Below, in pieces: positions 56,384-61,865 of a stretch of DNA of 64,000 nt. The first letter of the stretch is position 1. Each line of letters begins with the position of its first letter. Source of the stretch: Alphaproteobacteria bacterium (GTDB lineage Bacteria > Pseudomonadota > Alphaproteobacteria > Micavibrionales > Micavibrionaceae). The stretch spans positions 1-64,000 of the forward strand of contig JAGYOK010000003.1 in the NCBI GenBank assembly GCA_018399685.1. The letters run 5' to 3'. Both the position numbers and the translations under genes were made by a program. The notes beneath the pieces were generated by a model. That model made no database searches, was not told where the DNA came from, and saw nothing but the letters and a program-made list of their open reading frames with translations.

Positions 56384-56459
56384 GATCGCGTAGCTCAGCC
56401 GGTAGAGCAACTGACTTTTAATCAGTAGGTCCGGGGTTCGAATCCCCGCGCGATCACCA
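56384..56459 (+). tRNA. tRNA-Lys (anticodon TTT)
   Basis: A 76-base tRNA: acceptor GATCGCG / CGCGATC, D-arm with GCTCAGCCGGTAGAGC, anticodon stem CTGAC-TTTTAAT-CAG loop with TTT, T-arm CCGGGGTTCGAATCCCCG, discriminator A and encoded CCA. Its 3' part (56413-56459) is duplicated at 61819-61865, bounding a genomic island, and integration kept the tRNA intact. Confidence 0.97.
56413..56459. repeat. attL: 47-bp core, 3' half of tRNA-Lys
   Basis: The last 47 bases of tRNA-Lys, from the anticodon stem through CCA, recur exactly at 61819-61865. The copies mark the ends of the island. The first base before each copy and the base after (C and T) differ, so 47 bp is the full core. Confidence 0.9.
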
Positions 56460-56776
56460 CTTTCCCGCTAATCGACATTCTCATGGGACACTGGTGGGGC
56501 ACTAAGCAGCAAGAAGCTGCAACAATCCATACAAATAATTCATTCATTATTTTTCTGTTACGAAACCTATATATTTTAGGGCTTTGTAGGTGGAAACATG
56601 AACAGGTTTTGAGTGCTTTTTGGGCTTTTAATGCCCCTCGAGTGCCCCATACGATAGTTTTTATATTCTAAATTATTGTTATAAAACGTTAATAATAATT
56701 ATACCTACTGATTGTATGTCAGTGGTTGCTATTTCTTGCTGTTTATTATAGCCTTTTGTAATTCGCAGGCGAAGGG
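56460..56776. other. island left end with phased boxes, no gene
   Basis: The 316 bases before the integrase gene are AT-rich and gene-free. Two TGGGGCACT-like boxes (56484-56492 with one mismatch; 56495-56503 exact) are 11 bp apart, and a reverse-strand copy is at 56641-56649. These fit integrase arm sites or an excisionase site. The integrase promoter should lie in 56660-56770. Confidence 0.55.
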
Positions 56777-57847
56777 ATGAATATGGCAAACATAGAAAAG
56801 CGAAAAAATGGAGACGGTGAGGTATCATATAGGGTAAAAGTACGCCTCAAAGGATACCCAGCGCAATCTGCGACATTTAAGCGTTTAACTGATGCTAAAA
56901 AATGGGCGGTGCACACAGAGGCCAGTATCAGAGAAGGGCGCCATTTCAAGCACGCAGAAGCCAAAAAGCACACAGTTGCAGACCTAGTAGACCGCTACAT
57001 TAAACAAGTAGTGCCCCGTAAAGGTAAAAGCGCAGCGCGAGATTATAAGCAACAACTCGAATACTGGAAAAGCGAGTTAGGACATGTGCTGTTATCAGAT
57101 TTAACTGCGGCGGCTATTGTAGAAAAACGTGAGATACTCGCTAGCGGCATGACCAATAGAGGCCAAAGAAGTCCCGCAACAGTTAATCGTTACCTTTCAT
57201 CCTTAAGCCATGCTTGCACTATTGCTGTGAAAGAATGGGGGTGGATGGAGGATAGCCCTGTGCGTAAAGTTTCTAAGCTCAAAGAACCTAGAGGCCGAGT
57301 GCGTTTTTTGAGCGATGAAGAAAGAACTGCATTGCTTGAGAGTAGTAAAAACACTTCGTACCCGCACTTACATTTAATCGTAGTGCTAGCGTTAAGCACG
57401 GGAGCGCGTAAGGGCGAGATAATGAATCTGCGCTGGGGTGATATAGATAAAGCCAGAACAAAAATCATATTACACGAAACGAAAAACGGAGAGCGTAGGG
57501 TAATTCCCTTAACGGGATATGCAAAGCAGCTTATTTTAGAGCATGAGAAGGTTCGCCGTATTGATACGGATATGCTTTTTCCATCCAAAACAGGCCGCAC
57601 TCCATTTGATATAAAAAAGAGCTGGAATGCTGCGCTGGATGCGGCAGAAATTAAAGATTTCCGTTTCCATGATTTGCGTCATAGTGCTGCAAGTTATCTC
57701 GCAATGAATGGTGCAAGCCCAGCGGAGATAGCGGGTGTCTTAGGCCATAAGACCCTGCAAATGGTCAAACGCTACGCCCATTTATCAGAGGCTCATACAA
57801 GCTCTGTTGTGGAAAGCATGAACGAAAGGATTTTTGGAAGTGAGTGA
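56777..57847 (+). CDS. tyrosine site-specific integrase
   Basis: 356-residue phage-type integrase. The N-terminal arm-binding domain (about 1-60), core-binding SAM-like domain (about 65-165) and catalytic domain with Arg211 (STGARKGEI), His298 and Arg301 (HDLRHSAA), His324 (LGHKT) and Tyr333 (KRYAHL) are complete. It is the first gene inside the tRNA-Lys end of the island, pointing inward, as usual for such elements. The next gene overlaps its 3' end. Apparently functional. Confidence 0.95.
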   Translation: MNMANIEKRKNGDGEVSYRVKVRLKGYPAQSATFKRLTDAKKWAVHTEASIREGRHFKHAEAKKHTVADLVDRYIKQVVPRKGKSAARDYKQQLEYWKSELGHVLLSDLTAAAIVEKREILASGMTNRGQRSPATVNRYLSSLSHACTIAVKEWGWMEDSPVRKVSKLKEPRGRVRFLSDEERTALLESSKNTSYPHLHLIVVLALSTGARKGEIMNLRWGDIDKARTKIILHETKNGERRVIPLTGYAKQLILEHEKVRRIDTDMLFPSKTGRTPFDIKKSWNAALDAAEIKDFRFHDLRHSAASYLAMNGASPAEIAGVLGHKTLQMVKRYAHLSEAHTSSVVESMNERIFGSE

Positions 57848-58475
57848 AGAGGATATTAAATATCAGCTACAGCAACTTTTTATAGACTTCAATATTCAAG
57901 AACCGCCTAATTTTTATGAAGAATTTATGTCTGTGCTTTTCTTCCCTAAATCTGTGTTAGAGAGTATGAAAAATCAGCGCAATATGGGTTTCCTTAGAGC
58001 TTTAAATAATTATGAGAAAGACTACCATGATCTAAAAAACAGTTTAGAAACAGCATTAGAGATATTGAAAACTCCACTTTTTAGGCAGCAACTATCATTC
58101 TGTTTTTATAAAAACTTAAACGAAGACAAAAAGGATAAGGGGGCAGAAGAATATTCTAAGAAGGAACTGGATGAATATATTTCAGGAATAAAACAAATAG
58201 AGGAACTACTTAATGAGAGTCAAGACAGGTTCACTCTTCCCAAAAAAAAGCCCGGACCTCAAAATAAAAATAAACTTATATTAGCCTCTAATTTGGGTTT
58301 TTTAATGATACATGCGTTAGAAAAATTTCCAACGACAACACAAGAAGGGTTTTTTGAACGGTTATATCTCATTGCTTGTGAAGAAATCGGTATATCATCC
58401 CCAGGAGATACTGACAGAATAATGTCTAAGACAATAAAAGACCTAAAGCAGATTCATAACTACGAAGCCTGTTAA
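57840..58475 (+). CDS. island protein, unknown
   Basis: About 211 residues, AT-rich codons. The start is taken as the GTG at 57840 with AAAGGA nine bases before it; a TTG at 57834 is an alternative, and either overlaps the integrase 3' end. Charged and helical, with no signal peptide and no family I recognise. A Lys-rich stretch (PKKKPGPQNKNKL) lies near the middle. Translational overlap with the integrase suggests a linked role in the island's mobility. Confidence 0.65.
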   Translation: MSEEDIKYQLQQLFIDFNIQEPPNFYEEFMSVLFFPKSVLESMKNQRNMGFLRALNNYEKDYHDLKNSLETALEILKTPLFRQQLSFCFYKNLNEDKKDKGAEEYSKKELDEYISGIKQIEELLNESQDRFTLPKKKPGPQNKNKLILASNLGFLMIHALEKFPTTTQEGFFERLYLIACEEIGISSPGDTDRIMSKTIKDLKQIHNYEAC

Positions 58476-58592
58476 ATAAACAGCAAAAAGTGCTAATAAC
58501 TCACTGCTCCATATTTTTTTGTATATGCAAATATGCTCCTGAATCGACAACACACATGAGAGTTGTTGAATAACTCTAAAAAAGGAGCATAT

Positions 58593-58790
58593 ATGATGCC
58601 AAACTATCTAACAGTTAAGCAGATGGCTGCAAAACATCCTGCATTTAGCGAATCCTCTATTCGTTATCATATTTTCAACGAAACAAAGAACGGTTTGGAC
58701 AAAGCGATTAAGCGCGTTGGACGCAAAATCCTTATCAACGAAGATTTATTCTTTGAGTGGTTGGAAGGCCAGGATGGAAGTGCAGCATGA
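58593..58790 (+). CDS. HTH_17-type DNA-binding protein (excisionase-like)
   Basis: 65 residues from the ATG at 58593 (AAAGGAG five bases upstream). Pattern LTVKQMAAKHPAFSESSIRYHI ... RVGRKILINEDLFFEWLE is that of the MerR-like excisionase/AlpA HTH fold. It follows the unknown island protein after 117 bases. Probably binds an island end or controls the integrase. Confidence 0.75.
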   Translation: MMPNYLTVKQMAAKHPAFSESSIRYHIFNETKNGLDKAIKRVGRKILINEDLFFEWLEGQDGSAA

Positions 58791-58885
58791 AACGGCTGTT
58801 CAGTCCAGATGCAGAAAAAATAAACAGACAAGAGTTAAGGTGCTGGTTTAATGCCAGCCCCTCGCTCATGCCTCATAAAAAATAA
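58787..58885 (+). CDS. possible small coupled ORF
   Basis: A 32-codon frame whose ATG overlaps the stop of the preceding gene (ATGA). It has no ribosome site of its own beyond that overlap and no recognisable domain. It lies before the second HTH gene. May be chance. Confidence 0.25.
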   Translation: MKRLFSPDAEKINRQELRCWFNASPSLMPHKK

Positions 58886-58897
58886 GAGCTAGGGGTT

Positions 58898-59071
58898 ATG
58901 GACAAAAACCTTACTACAAAAGAGGCCTCGTTATTCTTGAACGTGTCAGTAAAAACTATGGAGCGTTGGAGAAAAGAGAAGCGCAGCCCGCCATATTACA
59001 AAAACGGGCGTATTATCCGCTATTCCTTAAACGACTTAAAGAAATGGCAAGACGATCACAAACAGACCTAG
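58898..59071 (+). CDS. MerR-like excisionase/AlpA protein
   Basis: 57 residues; LTTKEASLFLNVSVKTMERW, then RIIRYSLNDLKKWQ, the typical HTH_17 pattern with wing residue RYS. A short AG-rich stretch precedes the ATG. A second such protein beside 58593-58790; the pair may separate control of excision from control of replication. It lies 38 bases before the Rep-like gene. Confidence 0.82.
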   Translation: MDKNLTTKEASLFLNVSVKTMERWRKEKRSPPYYKNGRIIRYSLNDLKKWQDDHKQT

Positions 59072-59109
59072 ACGAACTTAGCCCCTCACTTTGAGCGGAA
59101 ACAATAAGC

Positions 59110-59739
59110 ATGATTGAAAAAAGAAAAAACACAAGAAATACAGGCACAAGCGAACAATTTGTATTACCCAGCGATTCAATATCGCACATATATAGTATGG
59201 GCAAAAAACACTATGCGCGCCCGACAAAATACTTAACCGCTAAACAAGTCGACAGGCTCTTTATTGCATGTGAAAAAGCCTACGCGCTGGGGCATCCTTT
59301 AAACAGGTTTTTTACTATTCAATATAATGATTATGCGACCCCTAAAAAGCCCCAGAAAGTCATAACAAATATTTTAGAACATACTCGTAAATGGCTGCAA
59401 AGACGTAACTTGCCTGTTGCCTATATCTATGTTTTGGAGAATGGCAAATATAAAGGCATTCACGCACATATTCTTGTTCATATCCCGCCTAACTATCAGG
59501 TTGATTATAAACGCGCATTAAGGAACTGGGTTCCCTTTGAATGGTCAAAACAGCGTATCAATACAAAAACAATAAGGTATCCGAGTTTTGGAGATTTACA
59601 CCCTCTGAATAGCATATATGGGACGTTACGTTATATGTGTAAGGGAATAGATGAACGCACGCCCATACATAGCATAAAGCCCGGGTACCAAGGTATAATA
59701 TATGGCCAGAGATATGGGATTAGTCTTTCATTGAGATAA
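59110..59739 (+). CDS. HUH-endonuclease (rolling-circle Rep-like) protein
   Basis: 209 residues. The three Rep motifs are in order: motif 1 RFFTIQYN near 66-73, motif 2 GIHAHILVHIP (His118, His120) and motif 3 LRYMCKG with Tyr175 and Lys178. There is no helicase domain and few residues follow motif 3. HUH enzymes nick one strand and attach to its 5' end by Tyr to start rolling-circle replication or transfer. The motifs suggest an active nickase for the island's own replication after excision. Family-level function is inferred. A hairpin follows directly after the stop. Confidence 0.75.
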   Translation: MIEKRKNTRNTGTSEQFVLPSDSISHIYSMGKKHYARPTKYLTAKQVDRLFIACEKAYALGHPLNRFFTIQYNDYATPKKPQKVITNILEHTRKWLQRRNLPVAYIYVLENGKYKGIHAHILVHIPPNYQVDYKRALRNWVPFEWSKQRINTKTIRYPSFGDLHPLNSIYGTLRYMCKGIDERTPIHSIKPGYQGIIYGQRYGISLSLR

Positions 59740-59743
59740 AAAA

Positions 59744-59820
59744 ATATTGTGAGCCTGCGAAGCGAAGCTGCTTCCAAGCAGCAAAGCGAGCGAGAGCAGG
59801 CGAACTAAAGGCTCAATATA
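59744..59820. repeat. long hairpin after the Rep-like gene
   Basis: Nested inverted repeats beginning five bases after the Rep stop: outer ATATTG-GAGCCT / AGGCTC-AATAT, middle GCCTGC (59753-59758) / GCAGGC (59796-59801), inner GCTGCTT (59767-59773) / AAGCAGC (59776-59782) with a CC loop. No T-run of length, so more than a terminator is possible: an origin or nick hairpin is plausible. Confidence 0.6.
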
Positions 59821-59840
59821 TCTTAACGAAAGGAACTACA

Positions 59841-59858
59841 GCACCCCGCAAGGGGTGC
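59841..59858. repeat. GC hairpin flanked by CTACA repeats
   Basis: GCACCCC-GCAA-GGGGTGC, a perfect 7-bp stem, with CTACA directly on both sides (59836-59840, 59860-59864). No T-run. Lies before the XRE gene; could be a nick-site hairpin or an attenuator. Confidence 0.5.
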
Positions 59859-59887
59859 CCTACAGATTACAAAAAAAGGAAAAGGCA

Positions 59888-60157
59888 ATGAAAGTTAATG
59901 TCGTAGATGGAAGGCAGCTCAGGGCTGGGCGGGTTATTCTGGGTATGAATATGGACGAATTAGCAAAAGTCGCTGGAATAAGCCGCAATAGCGTCTCACG
60001 TGTTGAAAATCTGAAGACACTTCCATTGCATGCTTGGGCTGCAGATAGAATGGCTGAAGCACTACAGGAAAGAGGTGTTATTTTTACCGTTGATAACGAT
60101 GAAATAGGAGCAGCCTTTTCTGCTCCAAATAAAAGGGTAAGAAAATATCCTTGGTAG
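59888..60157 (+). CDS. XRE-family regulator of the island
   Basis: 89 residues from the ATG at 59888; an upstream start at 59855 lies in the hairpin and has no ribosome site. XRE helix-turn-helix GMNMDELAKVAGISRNSVSRVEN. It stands between the Rep-like gene and the cargo and may keep the island's genes silent. The C-terminus is short and basic. Confidence 0.8.
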   Translation: MKVNVVDGRQLRAGRVILGMNMDELAKVAGISRNSVSRVENLKTLPLHAWAADRMAEALQERGVIFTVDNDEIGAAFSAPNKRVRKYPW

Positions 60158-60364
60158 CCCTAAGTTGGCATTTTGATGATTTATTAGCAGTCAATATATA
60201 GGGTAAAGTATTGGTTTATGTCCTATTGTAAGGTTGTCAAAAACACAATTGTGTCACAACTACGAGAAAGCACCTGTTCATTCTACGAAGCGATTACAAT
60301 AGTTTTTTGAGTCCATAAAAAGGCATAATTTTCCGAGTCCATAAAAAAGGTAGAAATAAAACAC
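60158..60364. promoter_or_regulatory. island intergenic with palindrome and direct repeats
   Basis: A perfect palindrome ACACAATTGTGT at 60243-60254 and two direct repeats GAGTCCATAAAAA at 60309-60321 and 60335-60347, 26 bp apart. The former is a candidate operator for the XRE protein, the latter candidate arm sites. No gene. Confidence 0.45.
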
Positions 60365-60919
60365 TCAGAAAATGTTCTGTGCTTGCAAAACACCCTCAAA
60401 ATATGTAGCCGGTACAGTTATAACAATACTTCCCTTTTGTCCTATAATTTTAACCTCATAATTTGTATAGCCTTTAGCTAATTCGTTTACTTTACCCTTT
60501 GTTAGGTTGATTCCGACCGTCTCACGCACAGAACAACCGTCATAACTGGAACAAGCTCCGACATCTCTCGATATTTTTACTAAATCAAGTTTCTTACCGT
60601 TGCTATAAGCACTATCCAAAAAAGACCAATCGTCTAAAGAAGCCACTACGTAAAGCTGGATTCTGTCGAAATCTTTGACGCTTTTTCCTTTCTTCCAAGT
60701 TCTAAGTGAATACATGTGACCAAAAACATTTTGGTCAGCAAAAATTATAGGGCCGTTGATTGTCGTAACATTTTCATGTTTGTCATAGTCTATTTCTGTA
60801 TGCTCCAAGACAGCCGTTGAATTGTGTGGGTCAATTACAGGTATATTAGCCATTTCGGCGATTGTATGGCCACAAGCAGTAAGAAATAGCATAGCTAATA
60901 AAGCAACAAATTTTCTCAT
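60365..60919 (-). CDS. island cargo lipoprotein
   Basis: 184 residues with a lipoprotein signal: hydrophobic stretch and lipobox LTAC with Cys16. The mature part is beta-rich, soluble, with two Cys in GACSSYDGCS; no family recognised. Its ATG directly abuts the stop of the next upstream gene (60920), so the two are co-translated. Probably exported cargo of the island. Confidence 0.72.
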   Translation of the reverse strand: MRKFVALLAMLFLTACGHTIAEMANIPVIDPHNSTAVLEHTEIDYDKHENVTTINGPIIFADQNVFGHMYSLRTWKKGKSVKDFDRIQLYVVASLDDWSFLDSAYSNGKKLDLVKISRDVGACSSYDGCSVRETVGINLTKGKVNELAKGYTNYEVKIIGQKGSIVITVPATYFEGVLQAQNIF

Positions 60920-61345
60920 TTATTTATCCTCAAGAAAGCTAGGGTTGTTGATACGAAATTCCAGTGCCTTCAAATACAAAGTCCAGCCATTACGACCACG
61001 CTTTACATACTCTGCGTTGCTAATTTTGCCTCTTTCATAAGCTTGTGCATTTTTCATAGCCCTTTCCCGCATAGATGTAATCAAATCGGGATATACAACA
61101 AAAGGACTAACTCTTTCATTTATTAGGGCCGTTATGCATTCTGTTATAGCAACGGCTTCGTCTGGTTTTGTTTCTTCAGGCTTTTTGCCGTTCCCGCATT
61201 TTTCTGGAATGATAGGAATAACTGTTTCCCAAGCGCTTAGTTCTTTTTGAACCCTCGGGGAAACAGAGTCAGCTTTTGATACTGTTGAGAAAAATAAGAA
61301 TGAAGCTATAAAAGCCCCAAATAGAATAGTTTTAAGACATTGCAT
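60920..61345 (-). CDS. island cargo exported protein
   Basis: 141 residues with a Sec signal (about 1-25, cleaved near SKA-DS). The mature protein is small, with two Cys (EKCGNG, TECITAL) that could form a disulphide, and a helical C-terminus. No family recognised. First gene of a two-gene unit with the lipoprotein gene, minus strand. Confidence 0.7.
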   Translation of the reverse strand: MQCLKTILFGAFIASFLFFSTVSKADSVSPRVQKELSAWETVIPIIPEKCGNGKKPEETKPDEAVAITECITALINERVSPFVVYPDLITSMRERAMKNAQAYERGKISNAEYVKRGRNGWTLYLKALEFRINNPSFLEDK

Positions 61346-61377
61346 AATTATAGACTCCCTTTTTCTAAGAAACTAAC

Positions 61378-61473
61378 GGCCACCAGATTTCTCTGGTAGC
61401 CGGGGAGTTTATATCCGTCGTAAGAACGGCGCAGCGTATTCACGCGAACGCTATTATATTCCGCCGCCTCCCC
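61378..61473. other. structured region upstream of the cargo genes
   Basis: A 10-bp stem-loop with one mismatch (GGCCACCAGA / TCTGGTAGCC) at 61378-61401, then a long stem GGGGAG / CTCCCC (61402-61407 / 61468-61473) enclosing two hairpins, CCGT / ACGG (415-418/426-429 of this block) and AGCGT / ACGCT (433-437/448-452). It lies in the 473-base gap before the att copy, where no protein gene is seen. It may be a structured RNA leader or small RNA of the cargo genes. Confidence 0.4.
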
Positions 61474-61684
61474 AACCATAGGGTCGAGAAAGCAGCATCA
61501 TTGATAACGGCCTGATGCTGTTTAGGCCGCTTACGAGGGGATATAACGCCCCAGCCTGTTCCAAAGAAGAACAGACTGTCTTATTTGTATCTTCCGGTCT
61601 AAGAAAATGCAATGTAAAGAAGGAATAACGCCGTTTTTATATTGATGGACAATTACATTACTGTGTTTATCATGAGTTATTATG

Positions 61685-61704
61685 TGGGGCACTCATGGGG
61701 CACT
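61685..61704. repeat. phased TGGGGCACT boxes at the island right end
   Basis: Two exact TGGGGCACT boxes (61685-61693, 61696-61704), 11 bp apart, mirror the pair at the left end at 56484-56503. Likely integrase arm or excisionase sites. Confidence 0.6.
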
Positions 61705-61818
61705 AGTGGGCAAATAAAGGCAATAGCTGCCGATATATGACAAAAAGCCATTCTGTTTAACTATTTGAATTTGTTATTGTATTCTGTTTTGGTGTGCTGC
61801 TAATTATATGCTGAGAGC

Positions 61819-61865
61819 GACTTTTAATCAGTAGGTCCGGGGTTCGAATCCCCGCGCGATCACCA
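61819..61865. repeat. attR: 47-bp duplicate of tRNA-Lys 3' end
   Basis: Exact copy of 56413-56459, including encoded CCA, without the 5' half of a tRNA. It is a non-functional tRNA remnant and marks the right end of the island. The island so defined spans about 5.4 kb. Confidence 0.9.

Follow-up and report, generated by a model that had tools for sequence, protein, structure and literature searches.

A compact integrative element in tRNA-Lys of a Micavibrio-like bacterium and the structured RNA that precedes its cargo genes

Introduction

PICMI115, a phage-inducible chromosomal minimalist island (PICMI), is among the described systems closest to the locus reported here. It has six genes; the integrase gene, a gene overlapping it and alpA are needed for excision, a primase replicates the element, and a virulent phage packages its rolling-circle concatemers. 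Genes known to redirect packaging are not reported for it (PMC10803314). From a related bacterium, Micavibrio aeruginosavorus ARL-13, nine islands of 11.4-27.4 kb were described, four of them beside tRNA genes and seven with integrases (PMC3189940). Here we analysed the first 64,000 nucleotides of contig JAGYOK010000003.1 (assembly GCA_018399685.1, forward strand; hereafter the window), in which a 5.4-kb island at positions 56384-61865 sits in the tRNA-Lys gene of a Micavibrio-like bacterium. The island is probably a complete integrative element resembling a minimal phage satellite, with a leader RNA of ~200 nt that would gate its cargo operon.

The closest described RNAs are sRNA-Xcc1 and C4. 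The originally reported ends of sRNA-Xcc1 delimit 88 nt (PMC2996969), integron cassettes of Xanthomonas carry the RNA ahead of symE (PMC12444791), and a Xylella island has clustered copies of it (PMC12189769). C4 RNA of P1/P7 is processed from a longer transcript and blocks the ribosome-binding site of ant (PMC12197685, PMC5320573).

Results

An exact repeat of tRNA-Lys bounds the island

ARAGORN calls one tRNA-Lys(TTT) at 56384-56459, and the tRNA was the only match when Rfam was run at its gathering threshold. The initial annotation had placed the island between exact 47-bp ends in this gene, and the repeat is indeed exact at both positions; it runs from the anticodon stem to CCA, reconstitutes the tRNA-Lys, and measures 50 nt at 98% when extended. 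Two kinds of feature had not been noted before, arm-type repeats at both ends and, on the minus strand, a structured RNA (61370-61584). The features of the two ends are as follows.

56384..56459, + strand: tRNA-Lys(TTT), the attachment site, its 3' part supplied by the element (ARAGORN, Rfam)
56413..56459, + strand: left core repeat, 47 bp, exact, direct
56484..56504, + strand: putative double arm-type site (TGGGACACTGGTGGGGCACTA), a 9-mer pair near the left end
56629..56649, - strand: putative arm-type site, inverted, with 2 mismatches (repeat search)
61685..61716, + strand: putative arm-type sites of the right end (repeat search)
61819..61865, + strand: right core repeat, 47 bp, exact, direct, a remnant of tRNA-Lys

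The 9-mer TGGGGCACT has four copies in the 64 kb, each at most 200 bp from a core repeat, against a mean of 0.41 in shuffles, and the arm-type 9-mers come in pairs with 11-bp spacing, some of them mismatched. Pairs of GGGGCACT with the same spacing also lie beside the tRNA ends next to the most similar integrases (85% in G056, 81% in G015), and no such pair was found in the stretches with the 61% and 60% integrases (G042 and G007). This distribution is what integrase arm sites should show. The island had also been called AT-rich; its GC content of 0.398 bears this out against the left side (0.461) but not against the 2.1 kb on the right (0.407), and the bias is mild.

The tRNA-Lys stretch was matched in 57 of 58 genomes, our own included, many of the weaker matches being other tRNAs. 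Among the 29 relative loci that were read, in which at most 1.5 kb was seen after the tRNA and the contig ended right after it in at least two, coaD adjoins tRNA-Lys in 26 and an integrase of the island's type follows it in one (G014). Because coaD and tRNA-Lys stay together so regularly and the integrase does not, we take the left flank to be core DNA and the island to be inserted. The gene to the right of the island is rare, with a single close relative (74%, in G009). In one genome, tRNA-Lys is found in two parts 322 bp apart (G036:C1:57409-57463 and 57786-57815, locus L055), which could reflect an intron, an insertion or an assembly error; a group I intron was tried as the explanation and dropped, no Rfam match being found.

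The core genes are open and in satellite-like order

Between the repeats, the following genes were found on the left of the cargo operon and in it.

56777..57847, + strand: tyrosine integrase, 356 aa (PF00589 Phage_integrase, 9.2e-30; phrog_1, 1.4e-70)
57840..58475, + strand: open reading frame (ORF) with a GTG start that shares 8 nt with the end of int and takes the position of iolg in PICMI
58593..58790, + strand: Xis-like helix-turn-helix (HTH) protein, 65 aa (HTH_17, 0.0041, weak)
58898..59071, + strand: AlpA/excisionase-type HTH protein, 57 aa (HTH_17, 3.1e-11; TIGR01764, 6.2e-6, below its cut-off)
59110..59739, + strand: predicted HUH replication initiator (Rep), 209 aa (PF23343 REP_ORF2-G2P, 7.8e-11)
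59745..59808, + strand: hairpin-forming intergenic DNA after rep (local fold -24.2 kcal/mol)
59888..60157, + strand: XRE-type regulator, 89 aa (HTH_3, 3.7e-6)
60365..60919, - strand: cargo 2, lipoprotein-like, 184 aa (lipobox-like N-terminus; phrog_8752, 9.1e-9, unknown function)
60920..61345, - strand: cargo 1, exported protein, 141 aa (N-terminal hydrophobic signal)

These matches agree with the initial annotation, which had read an apparently complete integrase, an HUH protein, an XRE regulator and cargo from the sequence. The two cargo proteins, one exported and one lipoprotein-like, are encoded on the minus strand. The initial annotation had also named two excisionase-type HTH proteins, of which the second is clear and the first is weakly matched; relatives of the first (36-48%) adjoin integrases of this island's type in six loci. 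Pfam, phrog and further family scans gave no convincing match for the ORF overlapping int or for cargo 1, and the cargo lipoprotein was not found in phage records. Defence as the function of the cargo was considered and set aside: PADLOC gave no match for the int-overlapping ORF, both cargo proteins and six of seven sister-element proteins, the remaining one (in L052) matching MzaA at 1.5e-15.

In Rep, H118, H120, Y175 and K178 are invariant in 6/6 and 7/7 alignment rows. The top structural match of its AlphaFold model (7 rows; mean predicted local distance difference test score, 66.8) is SIRV1 ORF119 (VIA, Z 10.6), followed by adeno-associated virus Rep domains at Z ~6-7, which are mixed with unrelated ferredoxin-like folds of like Z. 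On the basis of the structural match, the Pfam family and the invariant HxH and Y/K residues, we assign Rep to the HUH endonucleases, which are marked by an H-hydrophobic-H motif and a catalytic Tyr. The hairpin-forming DNA directly after rep may be its replication origin.

Sister elements occur near other tRNA genes

Relatives were sought in a sample of 142 genomes of the order (for the relatives, presumably Micavibrionales). Rep relatives (26-61%) are present there as seven copies in five genomes; outside the order they were found in two Sedimenticola metagenome-assembled genomes, as short 33-35% matches, and in five plasmids (27-33%), and none was found in viral contigs or phage records. 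An AlpA-like gene lies just upstream of Rep in six of the seven copies by tblastn or Pfam, and in the seventh (G096) by eye. In a 4.9-kb plasmid of Sulfitobacter dubius, pDSM109990_g, a Rep-similar stretch without a listed gene lies behind an annotated HTH gene (L072:2049-2306), and the AlpA-Rep pair may therefore exist on plasmids as well.

Each of the five sister loci with enough flank has an integrase, together with a tRNA gene for Val (three loci), Thr or Ser. Repeated tRNA ends delimit Rep elements in G020 (18 bp, 5.9-kb element) and once in G073 (38 bp, 7.8 kb). Where elements were traced by their integrases, such repeats were found in G015 (36 bp, 7.1 kb) and in G042 (46 bp, 10.3 kb), whereas L050, L051, L052, L093 and L097 gave none. 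Integrase relatives with E<=1e-60 are present in 33 of the 142 genomes, our own included. A tRNA gene lay within the stretch in 6 of the 14 loci read for such relatives (Thr, Arg, Trp and three Met), G014 having tRNA-Lys, and some of these elements carry other replication modules as judged by eye. The initial annotation had proposed searching for the same gene order at tRNA-Lys elsewhere: an integrase of the island's type was found there in G014, within the at most 1.5 kb seen, and the sister elements lie near other tRNA genes. ORFs resembling small terminase subunits were seen by eye in two stretches with integrases like the island's (L098:9860-10165 and L099:10517-10882), and would make these elements similar to phage-inducible chromosomal islands (PICIs).

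A structured RNA precedes the cargo operon

When the DNA downstream of the seven rep genes was folded, a look-alike structured stretch before cargo was recognised in three elements. The copy in the window is on the minus strand, ahead of the cargo operon.

61370..61584, - strand: structured leader RNA of the cargo operon (z -7.8, covariation; RF02221, 7.6e-6)
61377..61402, - strand: terminator-like hairpin at the end of the RNA, ~30 nt upstream of the start of the cargo

A profile made from four copies detected the RNA in 10 elements, including some with other replication genes, and model R1 matches 105 of the 142 order genomes, our own included, with up to 10 copies per genome. A single-stranded replication origin was rejected as the nature of this region, since its orientation relative to rep varies between elements. 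The genome G073 has three Rep-bearing elements near three tRNA genes, each with an RNA copy of its own (L050, L052, L053). Our own genome contains a second, weak copy (33.8 bits; G000:C18:13687-13863, L151), which is near a gene resembling an rRNA methyltransferase by eye and for which no cargo was identified.

The RNA is real by covariation. The window RNA folds at -102.8 kcal/mol, and z is lower on the cargo strand than on the opposite strand (-5.1). In ten copies, 17/32 and 21/36 pairs of two structures are changed on both sides, and in 39 copies 27/37 and 28/36, levels that 0/500 shuffles reach in either set; the A5 alignment was fitted to R1, so that the pair counts lean to the helices of R1, to which P2, A and C do not belong. 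The 39 RNAs and the seeds come from mobile loci and top-scoring matches, the weak L151 copy, an antisense match in L144 and duplicates having been dropped before counting. Helices P1 and P2 close the RNA. In P1, which is 98% paired across the 39 copies, a single position shows as many as four pair types; P2 is 80% paired, with all 7/7 pairs changed on both sides. A central strand has alternative partners, one being a 5' strand (P4, 15 bp, 97%) and the other a set of two 3' strands (A, 96%; C, 99%), and all of these helices covary. Helix A crosses P1 and so forms a pseudoknot, and P4 and A/C are mutually exclusive.

A start codon with a Shine-Dalgarno (SD)-like motif and an ORF of at least 45 aa follows within 90 nt in 36/39 copies, at a median of 25 nt, compared with 173/1000 random places (Fisher 3e-23). 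By a hydropathy rule, 33 of these 36 first products are membrane or exported proteins, as opposed to 35.4% of 359 background ORFs, which were mechanical ORFs (Fisher 3e-11). A U-rich tail, defined as at least 6 T in the 8 bases after a terminator-like hairpin, is present in 24/39 copies and at 254/4000 random places. Among 20 further RNA loci, hand-picked from strong matches at one per genome and including two with near-identical cargo (L134, L140), the fetched stretch includes a tyrosine recombinase in 13, compared with 0/20 control stretches taken at round positions on long contigs of 13 of the same 20 genomes. A leader role of the RNA is well supported. Members of one lipoprotein family follow the RNA at L099:11345-11794 and downstream of L138:9417-9589; because the integrases of the two loci differ, the RNA may travel with its cargo as one cassette.

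A probable 5' extension of the sRNA-Xcc1 family

The window RNA matches the sRNA-Xcc1 family RF02221 in its 3' half only (E 7.6e-6), and its 40.9 bits are below the curated cut-off of 53 bits; judging from this match, it is a homologue of sRNA-Xcc1 outside the curated family. In 398 genomes of the phylum, our own included, model R2 matches 25 and RF02221 matches 58, of which 39 exceed the cut-off, compared with 0/14 control genomes, and the two models coincide on the same strand at at least 11 places.

We then read the 30 best-scoring RF02221 loci from the 58 genomes with matches. In 28 of them, a stretch of at least 7 nt exactly complementary to P2'/P1' precedes the Rfam model by no more than 150 nt, usually by ~70-110 nt, compared with 24% (at most 47%) in permuted loci; a shorter strand gave 28/30 as opposed to 22%. 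This test does not depend on our models. Because nearly all of these loci have the 5' pairing strand, the catalogued 88 nt appear to be one half of a larger conserved structure, and no description of a full-length form of sRNA-Xcc1 was found in the literature searched. Phage records are consistent with the longer form: a 281-nt query from L181 matched 38 records, with 190-211 nt covered among the twelve matches listed. The conserved stretch of Escherichia phage Rac-SA53 is followed by ant at a distance of 38 nt, and in the record of Vibrio phage VPBES the annotation of sRNA-Xcc1 covers only 89 nt in the 3' part of the stretch. An L181-type match is present in 160/5426 E. coli genomes.

Ten next genes at RF02221 loci, chosen because they looked antirepressor- or SymE-like, were assigned by Pfam to Bro-N (2), KilA-N, P22_AR_N, Phage_pRha (3) and SymE (2), with one unmatched. 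In 16 of the 30 loci at least 7 nt around the SD motif of the next gene are complementary to P2'/P1', compared with 8.7% (at most 27%) in permuted loci.

Discussion

What kind of element the island is

The site, the repeats and the intact genes suggest the following course. The integrase, the overlapping ORF and AlpA would excise the element at the 47-bp tRNA-Lys repeat; the HUH Rep would nick the circle, rolling-circle replication following; and the product would exit in the particles of a helper, a phage being likelier than a conjugation machine, and re-integrate at tRNA-Lys. The cargo operon, with one exported protein and one lipoprotein, may have an envelope function, perhaps of the superinfection-exclusion kind.

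Several observations weigh against a satellite. No packaging gene or small terminase subunit (TerS) gene was found among the eight ORFs of the island with Pfam and phrog, the strongest packaging-related signals being weak HTH cross-matches such as phrog_57 at 0.13, and no helper was identified. The M. aeruginosavorus islands were judged by their authors to resemble integrative and conjugative elements (ICEs; PMC3189940). In addition, no relative was found that combines an empty site with the right flank of the island, and therefore the empty-site comparison proposed in the initial annotation is only partial, although coaD and tRNA-Lys emerge as core and the insert does not.

The main rival to a satellite is conjugative mobilisation, in which the island would be an integrative mobilizable element or integrative plasmid. 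It would undergo rolling-circle replication after excision, and a conjugation machine would then transfer it, with the HUH protein acting also as relaxase; pSAM2-like elements are a precedent. Rep distantly matches stretches of small plasmids, in Sphingopyxis (4.3 kb; 29% over 66% of the query) and Sulfitobacter (4.9 kb; 33% over 37%), and the lack of packaging genes among the eight ORFs and the ICE-like verdict on the nine published M. aeruginosavorus islands (PMC3189940) would fit as well. Of the two marks of a mobilizable element, an integrase and a relaxase or oriT, the integrase is present. We regard this origin as less likely than a satellite, but as a serious alternative. The family matched by the HUH protein comprises replication proteins, not relaxases; the order int, overlapping ORF, alpA and replication gene is that of satellites; and two integrase relatives (81% and 61%) are in elements with small-terminase-like ORFs, as judged by eye.

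The Pfam family of Rep, REP_ORF2-G2P, also raises the question of whether the island derives from a filamentous phage (inovirus), as its satellite or its remnant, with a G2P-like Rep retained and the coat and Zot genes lost. This is the least probable origin and was rejected: Zot is present in 5/142 order genomes and in 0/5 Rep-bearing genomes, so that the two sets do not overlap, the island proteins have no Zot match in Pfam or phrog, and an AlpA-type gene is not known to be typical of inoviruses. A stable island that is no longer mobile, or a decayed prophage, is very improbable too. The single copy, the one genome in hand and the lack of detectable phage structural genes could be read in that way, but the repeat is exact, int, alpA and rep are intact, and arm sites are retained at both ends. 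With the open core ORFs and the related elements, these features uphold the initial annotation, which had seen a self-contained mobile element and not a decayed prophage, and a self-contained integrative element is, at the level of sequence, the best reading of the island and a supported one.

How the RNA may act

The cargo would be transcribed through the ~200-nt leader, which ends in the terminator-like hairpin just before the first ribosome-binding site. We propose that the leader gates the downstream gene: in the full-length RNA the P2'-P1' strand would be held by the 5' half, and in the wider family this strand may pair instead with the ribosome-binding site of the next gene. When riboswitches were taken as the standard of comparison, a conserved RNA core with two kinds of downstream platform was seen.

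Some results limit or oppose such a leader. The fold with P1, P2 and P4 is favoured in 38/39 RNAs and by an average of 20 kcal/mol, so that bistability at equilibrium is disfavoured; with this difference an equilibrium switch is unlikely, and the alternative fold would require a partner, or else loss or processing of the 5' part. Across the 39 RNAs of the order, complementarity of P2'/P1' to the start region is not significant (123 and 200 of 1000 permutations reach the observed values), and capture of the ribosome-binding site by P1'/P2' is therefore unsupported for the window RNA; the terminator-like platform is the better guess there. A longer strand with an anti-SD-like CUCCC gave 17/39 at 6 nt or more, equal to the top of 500 permutations (43.6%), and this edge result was discounted. 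Membrane or exported next genes do not characterise the wider family (2/23 at RF02221 loci, 4/16 at R2 matches outside the order), 7 of the 20 further RNA loci have no integrase in the fetched stretch, R2 matches 20 and not all of the 30 RF02221 loci at the same place (E up to 0.06), and a second phage query (L193) gave seven records with partial matches only (11-32% of the query).

The RNA could also be an independent trans-acting small RNA (sRNA) gene that merely lies beside the cargo. Cloning of sRNA-Xcc1 gave an RNA of 88 nt whose ends were mapped (PMC2996969), and a hairpin with a U-tract, as in 24/39 copies, could end a free sRNA. A free gene of this kind seems rather unlikely, however, given the start codon and SD motif at a median of 25 nt downstream in 36/39 copies, the pairing of the 3' half with sequence further upstream in 28/30 RF02221 loci, and a conserved stretch of 190 nt in Rac-SA53 and 211 nt in the Vibrio phage VPBES, with the next gene 38 and 26 nt after it.

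Returning to the leader, we regard the switch mechanism as a strong hypothesis for the RF02221 loci. A broader proposal, which we offer tentatively and with slightly more doubt than belief, is that sRNA-Xcc1, instead of having a gene of its own, is the 3' product of a ~200-nt pseudoknotted leader that gates one gene in mobile elements (satellites, prophages and integron cassettes) across Proteobacteria. Processing would free P2'-P1' to seize a ribosome-binding site in cis or in trans, which would make it an independently evolved RNA immunity of the C4 type, and the order of the window would use a terminator platform and envelope cargo.

The RNA matters more than the island, as it ties an Rfam entry of unclear function to a leader position and a testable mechanism: it would be a leader of antirepressors, SymE and exported cargo, about twice as long as the catalogued sRNA. 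Because Rac-SA53 carries the RNA before ant and matches occur in E. coli genomes, the mechanism is testable in E. coli. The island itself would add an HUH-driven, tRNA-sited relative of the minimal satellites in Micavibrio-like bacteria, from which larger ICE-like islands are known (PMC3189940).

Comparison with known systems

Like PICMI, the island belongs to a size class of ~5-7 kb, has int, an overlapping ORF, alpA, a replication gene and accessory genes in this order, and is without a capsid-remodelling or terminase gene, and replication of the rolling-circle type is reported for PICMI (PMC10803314). The initial annotation had held that few islands are this small, which is not quite right, as PICMI satellites are equally small (6.7 kb on average in Vibrionaceae; PMC10803314). 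Unlike PICMI, the island has an HUH Rep for the primase, tRNA-Lys for fis and two HTH proteins, belongs to another bacterial order, keeps its cargo behind a structured RNA and has no known helper. PICMI are recognised by int, alpA and prim and by integration next to fis; no primase match was found among the eight ORFs scanned, the island is at tRNA-Lys, and because these two features fail it is PICMI-like by anatomy but is not classed as a PICMI. Gram-negative PICIs combine int, alpA and a replication gene with TerS or another packaging gene; the island has the first three of these and gave no packaging match among its eight ORFs beyond the weak HTH cross-matches. With the M. aeruginosavorus ARL-13 islands it has in common an integrase, a site by a tRNA gene, as in some of them, and a related host; it differs in being 5.4 kb long, and not 11.4-27.4 kb and ICE-like (PMC3189940).

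With sRNA-Xcc1 the window RNA has helices A, C and D and the mobile-element context in common. Unlike the Rfam model, the full RNA has a 5' half with P1, P2 and P4, and in the order of the window it occurs with a terminator-like hairpin and exported cargo. At 16 RF02221 loci no C4 covariance model matched the RNA proper (E up to 1), and a weak c4-2 match (RF02944, 0.0011, below the cut-off) lies at L189:2890-2958, 1.3 kb from an RNA of the sRNA-Xcc1 type. sRNA-Xcc1 would resemble C4 in being a short RNA made from a longer transcript, with an antirepressor mRNA as target and two recognition segments, one of them at the ribosome-binding site. It differs in that its segments have a second pairing partner in the 5' half of the precursor, from which processing would release them.

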